From contig NC_012029.1 in NCBI RefSeq assembly GCF_000022205.1, positions 2,356,001 to 2,420,000 of the forward strand: a stretch of DNA of 64,000 nt, written 5' to 3'. The translations under genes were made by a program, and so were the position numbers. Position 1 is the first letter of the stretch; every line of letters starts with the position of its first letter. Positions 2,555 to 54,695 of this stretch are shown here, in pieces. The notes beneath the pieces were generated by a model. That model made no database searches and was not told the DNA's origin. It saw only the letters and a list, made by a program, of their open reading frames with translations. Source of the DNA: Halorubrum lacusprofundi ATCC 49239. Lineage in GTDB: Archaea > Halobacteriota > Halobacteria > Halobacteriales > Haloferacaceae.

Positions 2555-4260
2555 ATGAGCGACGACTCCGTCCTCTGGTTGCTAGGAGACCAGCTCAACC
2601 CCGATCTCGACGCGCTCGCCAACGCCGACGAGGTGCTGCTGATCGAGGCGCACGGCTTCGCCGACCGGAAACCGTACCACACCCACAAGCTGACGCTCGT
2701 GTTCTCGGCGATGCGACACGCCCGCGACGCGCTCCGCGAGCGCGGCCACGACGTGACGTACCTGCGGGCCGAATCGTTCGGCGACGGGCTGGACACGTTC
2801 TTCGACGAGGAGTTCGCTGGCGAGCCGGGCGACGCCGACCTCCGGCTCATGCGCCCCGCGAGCCACGGCGCGGGCGACCGACTGCGCGAGGTCGTTGCCG
2901 AGCGCGGCGGAGCGTTGGAGCTACTGGACAACGAGCTGTTCTGGACGACGCCCGACGACTGGCGTGAGTGGACGGGTGAGTCGACGGGTGAGTCGGACGG
3001 GGAGGAGACGGAACCGGATCGTCGGCGAGGACGGGAGCGCCGACAGACGCTACCGACAGGAGAACTGGTACCGCCACGTCCGCCGCGAGACGGGCGTGCT
3101 GATGGACGGCGACGAGCCGGTCGGCGGCGAGCGGAACTACGACGACCTCAATCAGGAGACGCCGCCGGACGGCTGGGAACCACCCGAGCCGCCGCGGTTC
3201 GACCCCGACGAACTCACCCGCGAGACTCACGCGTGGGTCCGCGAGCGGTTCGACACGTGGGGAACCGACTCTCTCGACGAGTTCGCCTGGCCGGTCACCC
3301 GCGAGGAGGCGCAGACGGCGCTCGACGCGTTCGTCCGCGACCGGCTCCCGTCGTTCGGGCGGTACGAGGACGCGATGGTGACGGACGAGCCGTTCCTCTC
3401 GCATTCGCTGCTGTCGCCCGCGATCAACCTCGGACTGCTCGACCCGCGCGAGCCGGTCCGGGCAGTGGAGGCGGCATACACCGAGCGCGGCGTCGAACCG
3501 GGCGCGTACGATCCCGACGAGGACCCCGCCGCCAGCGATTCTGGGACGACGCTGGACGCGTTCGGTAAGGAGGATCCGGGCGACGGAGCCGACGACCGCG
3601 GACCCGCTCCCGTCCCCCTCAACGCGGTCGAGGGATTCGTCAGCAGGTGATCGGCTGGCGGGAGTTCACCCGACACGTCTACCGCGAGGCGATGCCGGAG
3701 CTGGCGGCGGCCAACCAACTGGACCAGTCGCGGGAGCTCCCGCCGGCCTACCGAGACGGCGACACGGACATGCGGTGTCTCTCCGAGACGGTCGGTCACG
3801 TCCGGAAGTACGGCTACGCCCACCACATCGAGCGGCTGATGGTGCTCTCGAACATGGCGCTGCTCTACGGCACCGATCCCGCCGAGCTGAACGAGTGGTT
3901 TCACCTCGGGTTCGTCGACGCCTACCACTGGGTGACGACGCCGAACGTCGTCGCGATGGGGTCGTTCGGGACGGACGTGCTCTCCTCGAAGCCGTACGCC
4001 GCATCGGGGAGCTACGTGAACCGCATGAGCGACTACTGCGCGACCTGCCCGTACGCGGTCTCACGGACCACGGGCGAGGGCGCGTGCCCGCTCAACGCGC
4101 TCTACTGAGACTTCTAAGGGAGAACGGGGAGACGCTCCGCGGAACCGGTCGGATGGGACTGATGTACTCGCACCTCGACAACAAAGCCGAGTCGGAACTG
4201 GCCGCGATCCGCGAGCGGGCGGCAGCGATCAGAGAAATGGCGGCGGATGGAGATTTATAA
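2555..4260 (+). pseudogene. Cryptochrome/photolyase-related protein (DPRP family), broken by frameshifts
   Basis: The conceptual protein matches the deoxyribodipyrimidine photolyase-related family: N-terminal WLLGDQLNPDLDAL, then YRQENWYRHVRRETGVLMDGD, FLSHSLLSPAINLGLLDP, IGWREFTRHVYRE and the C-terminal YCATCPYAVSRTTGEGACPLNALY followed by RMGLMYSHLDNK, a region expected to hold FAD and possibly an Fe-S cluster. No single frame covers it. The frame moves by +1 near 3000-3016, by -1 near 3643-3648 (immediate stop TGA at 3648-3650), then meets TGA at 4106-4108 where the family has Trp, and shifts -1 again near 4112-4117. Total span matches an intact family member. Either a recently inactivated gene or several sequence errors; codon use is still normal, so decay is recent. 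Confidence 0.85.
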
Positions 4261-50654: not shown

Positions 50655-50897
50655 ATGTCCGATATCGACATCGAACCCACAGACACCGTCGACGCCCGCG
50701 GAGCCGCCTGTCCCGGACCGCTCATGGACCTCATCGGTCGAGTCCGATCCGCCAGCTCCGGGGACGTCATCTTGCTCTTGAGCGACAACGATCAGTCGTT
50801 GACCGACGTCTCCGAGTGGGTCGACGAGACCGACAACGAACTGCTCGCGGTCGACGAATCGGGCGACGACTACGGCTTCTACGTGGAGGTCGCGTGA
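50655..50897 (+). CDS. tusA: TusA-family sulfur carrier
   Basis: An 80-residue TusA/SirA protein. The persulfide-carrying Cys19 is in ARGAACPGPLMDLIG (CPxP motif), followed by the GDVILLLSDN strand and a helix SLTDVSEWVDETDN. It accepts and passes sulfane sulfur between enzymes. It lies one base upstream of a sulfide:quinone-reductase-like flavoprotein gene; together they form the left arm of a sulfur cluster. TATA-like TTTATATTG near 50593-50601 (leader about 55 nt). A second TusA is at 54441. Confidence 0.93.
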   Translation: MSDIDIEPTDTVDARGAACPGPLMDLIGRVRSASSGDVILLLSDNDQSLTDVSEWVDETDNELLAVDESGDDYGFYVEVA

Positions 50898-50898
50898 G

Positions 50899-52050
50899 AT
50901 GACCGACCGTATCGCCATCCTCGGGGGTGGCACGGGCGGAACGGTGCTCGCGAACAACCTCGCGGACCGGCTCGCCCTGGAGATTGACGCCGGCGACGTC
51001 GAGGTGACGCTGATCAACGACGACCCGGACCACGTGTACAAGCCGGTGTGGCTGTACGTCCCGTTCGGCCAGCGCGAGCCCGCCGACGGGCGCCGACCCC
51101 TCCGCGACCTCGTCGACGACCGGGTCGACGTCGCGATCGACCGGGTGACCGAGATCGACACAGACGCAAAGGAACTCGCGCTCCGTGACGGCTCCGGACC
51201 GCTCGGCTACGACCACCTCGTCGTCGCGACGGGCTCGACGCTCGCCGACGACGAGATTCCGGGGCTCGCAGCGGGCGGCCACGACTACTACTCGGAGTCC
51301 GGCGCACTGGCGCTCAGAGACGAACTCCTCTCGATGACCGAGGGCCACCTCGTGTTGAGTGTCGTCGGCACGCCGCACATGTGCCCGGCGGCGCCGCTGG
51401 AGTTCGTCTTCATGGCGGACAGCTGGTTCCGTCAGCGTGGGCTCCGCGACGACATCGAGATCACGTACACGTACCCGATCAACCGCGTCCACGGCAACCC
51501 CCAGATCGGCGAGTGGGCGGACCCGATAATGGCGGAGCGGGACATCAACACGGAGACGTTCTTCAACGCCGAGTCGGTCGACCCGGACGCGAAGACGATC
51601 ACCTCCATGGAGGGGACGGAACTCGACTACGACCTGTTGGCCGCGATCCCGCCACACCGCGGCGTCGACGTGGTCGACGAGGCAGGGCTGGGCGATCGTG
51701 GCTGGGTCGACGTGGATAAACACACCTTAGAGGCCGAGACGGCAGACAACGTGTACGCGCTCGGCGACGCCGCGACGACCGGCGTCCCGAAGGCGGGAAG
51801 CGTCGCCCACTATCAGGCAGGCGTCGTGGCACAGCGGCTTGAAAGCGAGATCCGCGGTCGGCCCGCAACCGCGACGTACGACGGAAAGACGCTCTGTTTC
51901 ATCGAGACGGGGATGGACGCCGCCTCGTTCGTCGAGTTCGACTACGAGAACCCGCCGTCGCCGGCGCCCCCCCTCCGAGAAGCTCCACTGGTCGAAGCTG
52001 GCGTACAACGAGTCCTACTGGCTCACCGCACGGGGGTTGCTCTGAGATGA
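50899..52050 (+). CDS. Sulfide:quinone-oxidoreductase-like FAD protein, C terminus frameshifted
   Basis: As sequenced, 383 residues. N-terminal FAD site IAILGGGTGGTVLANNLADRL, LVVATGSTLADDEIPG, Cys-containing GTPHMCPAAPLEF, and the second FAD motif ADNVYALGDAATTGVPKAGS place it in the SQR/FCSD group of flavoproteins, oxidising sulfide or persulfide and reducing quinone. At 51967-51973 there is a run of seven C. Removing one restores PPSEKLHWSKLAYNESYWLT, typical for the end of this family, with a stop at 52043-52045, one base before the next ATG. The sequenced frame instead gives an unrelated Arg/Val-rich tail to 52050. Sequence error or recent or reversible mutation. Confidence 0.85.
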   Translation: MTDRIAILGGGTGGTVLANNLADRLALEIDAGDVEVTLINDDPDHVYKPVWLYVPFGQREPADGRRPLRDLVDDRVDVAIDRVTEIDTDAKELALRDGSGPLGYDHLVVATGSTLADDEIPGLAAGGHDYYSESGALALRDELLSMTEGHLVLSVVGTPHMCPAAPLEFVFMADSWFRQRGLRDDIEITYTYPINRVHGNPQIGEWADPIMAERDINTETFFNAESVDPDAKTITSMEGTELDYDLLAAIPPHRGVDVVDEAGLGDRGWVDVDKHTLEAETADNVYALGDAATTGVPKAGSVAHYQAGVVAQRLESEIRGRPATATYDGKTLCFIETGMDAASFVEFDYENPPSPAPPLREAPLVEAGVQRVLLAHRTGVALR

Positions 52051-52694
52051 CGGGTGACGACCCCGAAAGCGGAGGAGAGGATCTCGACCGCGACGACCTC
52101 GAATCGATCGTCGCCGAGAATCCAGAGGCGGTCGCGACGTTCATCGACCGGCTCGATGCGGTCAACGAGTTCCTCGACGTGGTTGCACTCGGTGAGGGCG
52201 CGCTCACCGACGAGATGGTCGTCGAACTCGCGGGCACGGCCTCGACGCTCGCGGAATCGGCGGACGGGCTCGCGACCGACGAGACCGTGGCACTCGCCGA
52301 GACCGTCGGCGGGAACGGCGCGGAGCTTCGCGAGGCGATGGAGACGCTGATCGCGCTTCAGCGAAGCGGGACGCTGGACGAGCTCGCGGAGGTCGCGGAA
52401 GTGGGATCGCTCGCAACCGCCGCGCTCGACGACGAGATGGTCCGCTCGCTGGCCGGAACGGGCTCCGCGCTCGGCGAGGTGGCAGACACCGCCGCGGACG
52501 ACGACACCCGCGATGGGCTGAAGACGCTGTTGGCGGGGGTCGGCGCCGCCCAACGGAGCGATCCGGAATCAGTGGGCGCACTTGGGCTCGCGCGGGGGAT
52601 CCGCGATCCGGAGGTCCAGTACGGGCTCGGCTACGTGCTCGCGATCTCGAAGGCGATCGGGCGAGAACGCGCGGAGACCGACGACGACGTGTGA
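52047..52694 (+). CDS. DUF1641 protein
   Basis: A 215-residue, acidic, mostly helical protein of the DUF1641 family. It contains an internal duplication: LTDEMVVELAGTASTLAESAD (about 49-69) and LDDEMVRSLAGTGSALGEVAD (about 129-149). The conserved family end GLARGIRDPEVQYGLGYVLAISKAIG is present. DUF1641 proteins are usually encoded beside SQR-like flavoproteins or formate-dehydrogenase-like genes; here it follows the flavoprotein by one base in the restored frame, so a partner or membrane-adapter role is a fair guess. Confidence 0.85.
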   Translation: MTGDDPESGGEDLDRDDLESIVAENPEAVATFIDRLDAVNEFLDVVALGEGALTDEMVVELAGTASTLAESADGLATDETVALAETVGGNGAELREAMETLIALQRSGTLDELAEVAEVGSLATAALDDEMVRSLAGTGSALGEVADTAADDDTRDGLKTLLAGVGAAQRSDPESVGALGLARGIRDPEVQYGLGYVLAISKAIGRERAETDDDV

Positions 52695-53851: not shown

Positions 53852-54439
53852 TCAGACGAGTAGCTGGATGTCCGCGTCGACCATGTCCTGGAACGCGGAG
53901 GCAGCGCCGACGCCGGTCGTGACGCCGTCGTAGAAGTCGTCCTCGTCGTAGCCGAGCAGGTCGATCGTCATCTGACACGCCTGCAGTTCGACGCCGCTCG
54001 CGAGCGAGGTCTCGATGAGCTCCTCCACCGTCGCGACGTCGTTGTCGTCGATTTTGTTGCGCATCATGCGCGTCGTCATCCGGTCCATGCCCGGGAGCGC
54101 GGCGATCATGTTCGGGACCGGCATGTTCGGGTTCCCCACGGAGCTGAGCTGGAGGTTCTTCGAGTTCTCCTCGTGGAGGATCTCGAGACCCCAGAACGTG
54201 TGGAAGATGGTGACGTCGTAGCCGAAGGCGGCCGCGGTGCTCGCGAGGATGAGCGGCGGGTACGCCATATCGAGCGTCCCCTTCGTCGCGATGATGACCA
54301 TCTTCTGGGGACCGTCGTCGTCGACGTCGGTCCGGAGGTCCGATACCTCGGTCTCGAGTGCGTCGATGCGGGCCTGCAAGTCGGCGACGGCTTCGGGATC
54401 GAGATCGTCGTTCGTCGACGCCGGTGTGTCCGCGCTCAT
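53852..54439 (-). CDS. DsrE/DrsH-like (DsrE2) sulfur-transfer protein
   Basis: A 195-residue protein. Residues 15-45 are an acidic coiled-coil-like leader; then the DsrE-type fold with KMVIIATKGTLDMAYPPLIL, DVTIFHTFWGLEIL, MPVPNMIAALPGMDRMTTRMM and SGVELQACQMTIDLLGY, whose Cys155 is the persulfide site. DsrE2 proteins work with TusA and rhodanese in sulfur trafficking. The upstream tusA gene is one base away, so the two are an operon reading away from the rhodanese gene. Confidence 0.9.
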   Translation of the reverse strand: MSADTPASTNDDLDPEAVADLQARIDALETEVSDLRTDVDDDGPQKMVIIATKGTLDMAYPPLILASTAAAFGYDVTIFHTFWGLEILHEENSKNLQLSSVGNPNMPVPNMIAALPGMDRMTTRMMRNKIDDNDVATVEELIETSLASGVELQACQMTIDLLGYDEDDFYDGVTTGVGAASAFQDMVDADIQLLV

Positions 54440-54440
54440 C

Positions 54441-54695
54441 TCACTCGGTCTTCCGGACGTAGTGTTTGTACACGTCCTGGCCGTCCTCGGTCGCCTCTTC
54501 CTGATCGACGAGTTCGGCCCCGTCGGTCGATTCCGCCCAGCCCGCGATGTCGCTCATGCTCCCGGAGTCGGTGGCGACGATCTCGAGTACCTCGCCGGCG
54601 GCGAGGTCGTCGAACGCGCCTTTGGTCTTGATCACGGGCATCGGGCAGTTCTGTCCTCTCACGTCTAGCGTCTCGGCTGCGGTTTCCGTACTCAT
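54441..54695 (-). CDS. tusA: TusA-family sulfur carrier (second copy)
   Basis: An 84-residue TusA with Cys17 in DVRGQNCPMPVIKTKGAFDD (the CPMP form, closer to bacterial TusA than the first copy's CPGP). GEVLEIVATDSGSMSDIAGWAEST is the typical middle. Encoded one base before dsrE2, it is likely that protein's partner. A minus-strand TATA box CTTATACC near 54742-54749 implies a leader of about 20-25 nt. Differences from the copy at 50655 suggest distinct partners. Confidence 0.93.
   Translation of the reverse strand: MSTETAAETLDVRGQNCPMPVIKTKGAFDDLAAGEVLEIVATDSGSMSDIAGWAESTDGAELVDQEEATEDGQDVYKHYVRKTE

Follow-up and report, generated by a model that had tools for sequence, protein, structure and literature searches.

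The question raised by this locus is whether the gene for a putative sulfide quinone oxidoreductase (SQR) in Halorubrum lacusprofundi ATCC 49239 really ends in the frame in which it has been recorded. The window analyzed here is a stretch of 64,000 nucleotides within the 2,735,295-base contig of a genome of 3 contigs and 3,692,576 bases, and it contains an SQR-family gene in which a run of seven C fills codons 357-358 and extends to the first base of codon 359. A preliminary description of the window had claimed that this run shifts the last 25 codons of the gene. The run and the open reading frame were both confirmed in the sequence, and their positions are collected with those of the neighboring genes in Table 1.

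Table 1. Positions of the SQR gene, its two alternative ends and the surrounding sulfur-carrier genes in the window.
Feature	Positions	Strand	Evidence
TusA sulfur-carrier gene, directly upstream	50655-50897	+	Pfam PF01206, E 2.2e-17
SQR-family flavoprotein gene as read, 383 aa, last 25 codons shifted	50899-52050	+	Pfam Pyr_redox_2, E 2e-19
C7 run, where the frame leaves the family	51967-51973	+	C7 there in 0/70 distinct orthologues
Family C-terminal tail and stop, in the other frame	51974-52045	+	Protein is the commonest orthologue tail
DUF1641 protein gene, whose start overlaps the shifted stop	52047-52694	+	Pfam PF07849, E 3.5e-12
DsrE2-like sulfur-carrier gene	53852-54439	-	Pfam PF13686, E 2e-51
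Second TusA-like gene	54441-54695	-	Pfam PF01206, E 7.7e-20

As recorded, the frame runs from its ATG over 383 codons to a TGA at 52048-52050 and ends in ...PPLREAPLVEAGVQRVLLAHRTGVALR. From the C7 run onward it reads LREAPLVEAGVQRVLLAHRTGVALR, a 25-residue tail that is unrelated to the family. When the bases behind the run are read directly in the other frame they give SEKLHWSKLAYNESYWLTARGLL and a stop, which falls one base short of the ATG of the DUF1641 gene. It had been proposed that six C would restore the family end in just this way, and the restored residues do match the tails of the orthologues. It had also been proposed that seven C lead to an unrelated tail with a stop five bases later that overlaps the DUF1641 start, and this too is what the sequence contains, the shifted TGA and the ATG being joined as ATGA.

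To compare the end of the gene with its relatives we used 30 loci from the genus, taking one genome for each species and including the window, together with 78 named loci; many genomes are present in both sets. Excluding the window and keeping loci with at least 60% identity over the first 356 residues gave 93 orthologue loci with 70 distinct coding sequences, and 14 further loci, which are bacterial, about 26-31% identical and end differently, were left out. The family tail ends all of the 93 haloarchaeal loci, with 18-23 of its 23 residues identical and all 23 identical in 57 loci. The preliminary description had named orthologues naturally carrying the sequenced tail as the observation that would speak against its proposal; neither this tail nor anything like it occurs in any of the 93. 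Because every one of these loci ends in the family tail and none in the shifted one, the 25-codon shift and the stop five bases later are not a product of chance.

The run itself is peculiar to this record among the sequences compared. At the same site the distinct orthologues have C6 in four cases, C5 in one, C4 in one and C3 or less in the remaining 64, and a C7 run is found nowhere in the SQR gene of any of the 70. The four C6 runs are in frame and at the same place as the run of the window; six C is the in-frame length here, but the family as a whole has not conserved it. The protein and its three nearest relatives are 91-92% identical up to codon 356, and the tail encoded in the other frame of the window is shared at the protein level with 38 of the 70 distinct orthologues. 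No copy of the gene from the same species was found among 52 genomes of the genus (the nearest is 92% identical) or among the 78 named loci, a set from which the own genome was possibly left out, and no SQR relative was found in viral contigs.

Over the 72 bases behind the run there is no position at which the base of the window is found in two or fewer of the 70 orthologues, and against each of the six nearest relatives they show 0-1 synonymous and 0-1 non-synonymous differences. Read in the family frame, this stretch of the window has a GC content of 0.50, 0.41 and 0.95 at codon positions 1, 2 and 3. The homologous stretch of a relative (G037), read in the shifted frame, gives 0.91, 0.48 and 0.43; the shifted frame lacks the coding signal. 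A loss of function would in time be followed by changes, and because none peculiar to this record are found after the run, the event is either very recent or missing from the cell. A search of the own genome with this protein returned only this gene at E <= 0.001, on which ground rescue of the tail by a paralogue was rejected. Matches to the broad flavoprotein family PF07992 number 30 in the host genome.

How much a real shift would matter depends on what the protein is and what its tail does. With 70.6 bits against Pfam PF07992 (Pyr_redox_2, cut-off 26.1) it has the two-Rossmann FAD-binding fold of the SQR and flavocytochrome c sulfide dehydrogenase flavoproteins. The nearest NCBIfam model is NF049943 for type III SQR, of which it is not a member: it scores 333.7 bits against a cut-off of 525, and two orthologues, at 331.5 and 330.5 bits, are likewise below it. 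C162 and C333 are invariant in an alignment of 41 sequences including the window protein, and alignment to human SQR suggests a redox role for the pair. The structural model of an orthologue matches human SQR (8dhk_B) with a Z score of 46.9 and an rmsd of 2.1 over 374 aligned residues, and the window protein does barely less well with a Z score of 45.4. The haloarchaeal protein shares the two Rossmann domains, C162/C333 and the overall fold with the solved SQRs of human (6oi5, 8dhk), A. aeolicus (3hyv) and A. ferrooxidans (3t31), although its identity to them is about 24% or less. The orthologue model can be superposed on the Aquifex enzyme up to residue 400 of its 429-residue chain.

After the last strand the AlphaFold2 model of the orthologue has a single C-terminal helix at 360-377 (block pLDDT 91 and 83). 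Most SQRs have two amphipathic C-terminal helices there and those of type VI have one, according to the available part of a published account (PMC9666304). In the window version the tail blocks have pLDDT values of 56, 47 and 27, and a low-confidence helix of foreign sequence is drawn at 362-377; the orthologues in the alignment may have pulled this model toward the helix and the fold. Y373 is invariant in 40 of 40 aligned SQRs, which include 14 bacterial sequences at 26-31% identity, and K366, W374, G379 and L381, all within the tail, are each at least 90% conserved in the same alignment. The family tail is a genuine element of the protein, because the helix of the orthologue is confidently predicted and residues of the tail are kept in bacterial SQRs that are only about 30% identical. 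The claim that a C-terminal element of the family had been replaced through a one-base shift is borne out by the orthologue tails and the helix model. It had further been suggested that the lost tail is a membrane-binding amphipathic end. This suggestion holds only in part, the Eisenberg hydrophobic moment (best 14-mer) being 0.27 for the family tail, which is weakly amphipathic, and 0.50 for the shifted tail.

Published truncations give some idea of the consequences. In the part of that account available to us, the aromatic residues of the quinone pocket are located in the first C-terminal helix, the Caldivirga SQR truncated at its C-terminal helices becomes cytoplasmic and inactive, and the Thiocapsa SQR truncated likewise stays membrane-bound with 55-83% activity (PMC9666304). 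Because these two outcomes differ, a real shift would probably, but not certainly, harm the use of quinone by the haloarchaeal enzyme. The idea of a membrane switch would be a further step, built on top of the role of the tail.

What we can say plainly is that the record has the shift, that none of the orthologues examined shares it, and that the family frame behind it is fully preserved. We lean toward the explanation that the consensus of this one record, finished by Sanger sequencing, is in error and one C too long at the run. The gene in the cell would then stay in the family frame throughout and yield a normal SQR, a flavoenzyme of two Rossmann domains that would pass electrons from sulfide to the quinone pool and end in a single C-terminal helix; the DNA of the cell would lack the extra base and the enzyme would be active. 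We favor this explanation because none of the 93 orthologue loci has the shift, there is no decay after it, the shifted frame lacks the coding signal, no second copy of SQR was found and the gene neighborhood is conserved. Such an error would leave a model cold-adapted archaeon with a reference protein whose C-terminus is wrong, and an SQR expressed from the database sequence would be a damaged enzyme.

How the genome was sequenced bears on both sides of this choice. For Sanger reads at 12.5x a run of seven C is of no great length, which counts against an error. The available part of the genome report describes ABI3730 reads at 12.5x coverage, Phrap assembly, an error rate of less than 1 per 50 kb and GenePRIMP curation (PMC5018182). 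That the genome was finished and curated in this way also counts against an error, although the stated bound would still allow dozens of errors genome-wide. A chromosome of 2,735,247 bases with 99.99% identity was obtained when the DSMZ stock of this strain was later sequenced with PacBio (PMC10544981). It is 48 bases shorter than the 2,735,295 of the present record, which counts for an error, but the difference is a net figure for which the main text does not give positions, and PacBio assemblies can themselves err in homopolymers. Records of the strain do therefore differ in length in this way. The laboratory stock ACAM34_UNSW is 99.999% identical over the chromosome; a single small intergenic change is named there and the SQR gene is not mentioned (PMC10544981), and we have counted this near-identity against an error as well. 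For a sister strain, an 80-base G+C-rich stretch with single-nucleotide repeats is reported, in the available part of the source, to have resisted Sanger sequencing (PMC6011602), which counts for an error.

We also looked at how often frames break elsewhere in the record. A sample of 264 kb around the window was compared with the relative G037, with codon-position GC as the filter. Before filtering the scan gave 17 and 12 candidates, with shadow reading frames abundant. After filtering, the 166 genes compared with G037 gave 10 candidate rows, 4 of which have coding signal on both sides and fall in three broken genes of this genome, namely SQR, a gene at about 2555-4114 of the window with two breaks, and one at 204779-204842 of the sample. 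In the opposite direction 167 genes were compared and 4 rows obtained, which are SQR, one break of G037 near a G6 run and 2 others. The rows that were dropped (6 and 2) were taken, on their GC values or position, to be matches of start regions or shadow frames. A second sample of 300 kb (92 and 96 genes compared, with partial synteny) contained no clean one-base slip, which counts against an error, and the five candidates flagged there as coding on both sides all have gaps of 23-61 bases. This survey is too small to tell error from mutation.

Runs of seven C or G can be checked directly, and there are 7 in the 264 kb of this genome and 4 in 260 kb of G037. Apart from the run in SQR, four of the other six lie in coding frames and align to G037 without an indel over the 70 columns shown; one of the remaining two gave no alignment and the other a gapped alignment without a clear gene. 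Because those four coding runs align without an indel, runs of seven are not generally miscounted in the record.

Compared with a 556-aa frame of G037, the gene at 2555-4114 of the window changes frame twice, near 2983-3018 and 3632-3641, with coding signal on all three pieces, and by eye it is a candidate photolyase-like gene. The third broken gene is a conserved one whose break, at G000:C2:2460779-2460842, lies inside a G+C-rich palindromic stretch. Such palindromes are a classic trouble spot for Sanger sequencing, and the break looks like a possible compression error.

We favor the consensus error over a real mutation, but the latter is a serious competitor to which we give the lesser weight. 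In this reading a +1 slip, recent and private to the sequenced stock or the species, would have replaced the SQR helix with an unrelated tail. A synonymous change could have given C6 and a subsequent slip C7, and interaction with quinone or the membrane would probably be impaired. The precursor state is natural, given the in-frame C6 of four distinct orthologues, and the correct reading of the four other coding runs and the presence of further broken genes in the 264 kb sample also speak for a mutation. The absence of decay after the shift is equally expected if the mutation is very recent. Against it are the strong constraint on the tail, which extends to the bacterial SQRs, and the fact that no second copy was found in the own genome that might stand in for the gene. 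Were the mutation real, the type strain would be a natural test of the role of the SQR C-terminal helix in an archaeon. Our literature search, judged by title or the start of the abstract, found no paper on this gene in H. lacusprofundi and none on type III sulfide quinone oxidoreductase in haloarchaea. In the main text of a proteome paper the terms sulfide, pyridine nucleotide, disulphide, DsrE and TusA are absent (PMC5118699).

The reversible switch of membrane attachment raised in the preliminary description found no support here, and we regard it as very improbable. It would have the C run slip back and forth in H. lacusprofundi, toggling the C-terminal helix of SQR against a different tail. 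The site is indeed a homopolymer inside a coding sequence, as in the phase-variable tracts of bacteria, and the two frames differ solely in the C-terminal element. The second frame continues open for about 58 bases beyond the normal stop in 57 of the 70 relatives; for 39 of those 57 the next ATG or GTG comes two bases on, which by arithmetic makes the second frame that of DUF1641. A slip in such haloarchaea could then conceivably fuse SQR to DUF1641, which is part of the same improbable scheme. Unlike the bacterial tracts, the run is short, just 7 bases, is not conserved and, known here from one record, showed no variation. The tract of a phase-variable locus would be kept long in relatives, and here it is shorter in each of the 70 distinct orthologues (C7 in none, C6 in four). 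The gene is moreover metabolic and not a surface gene, and one search of the open literature for phase variation at homopolymers in haloarchaea found nothing relevant. Both this switch and recoding are disfavored because either should leave a conserved tract or site in relatives and there is none. Least probable of all is a programmed or leaky +1 recoding, in which ribosomal or transcriptional slippage on the C run would restore the family tail in part of the product: CCC-C is a +1-prone sequence in bacteria and the family frame downstream is intact, but the next codon as read is CTC, the C7 site and the shift occur in no orthologue examined, all 93 loci reach the family tail in one frame where a programmed frameshift would keep its slippery site and shift, and nothing shows selection for recoding.

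The surroundings of the gene are those of its family. In 60 of 64 haloarchaeal loci a TusA gene precedes the SQR match by at most 60 bases, and in all 64 a DUF1641 match starts within 400 bases downstream of it. A DsrE2 match is present in 46 of these loci and a match to the second TusA in 62, although a considerable share of these 62 come from the first TusA gene, matched again at low identity. Judging by family names, this would be an ordinary cluster for sulfide oxidation and sulfur carriers. The TusA-SQR-DUF1641 module of other haloarchaea such as Halorubrum lipolyticum and H. kocurii is arranged in the same order, and its SQR is 91% identical over residues 1-356, but the one-base shift is found in the window record only and not in the modules of the other haloarchaea examined. 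Because the shifted stop overlaps its start, the DUF1641 gene should not be silenced even by a real shift.

The last 30 or so codons of SQR (window 51952-52045) also have the strongest conservation of synonymous codons in the gene. Among 64 distinct orthologues, 11 of the 12 top-ranking 12-codon windows for this property fall at the SQR end, and the codons kept there include a GCA in 41 and a TTG in 34. A signal for the translation of DUF1641 may be embedded in the end of the SQR gene.
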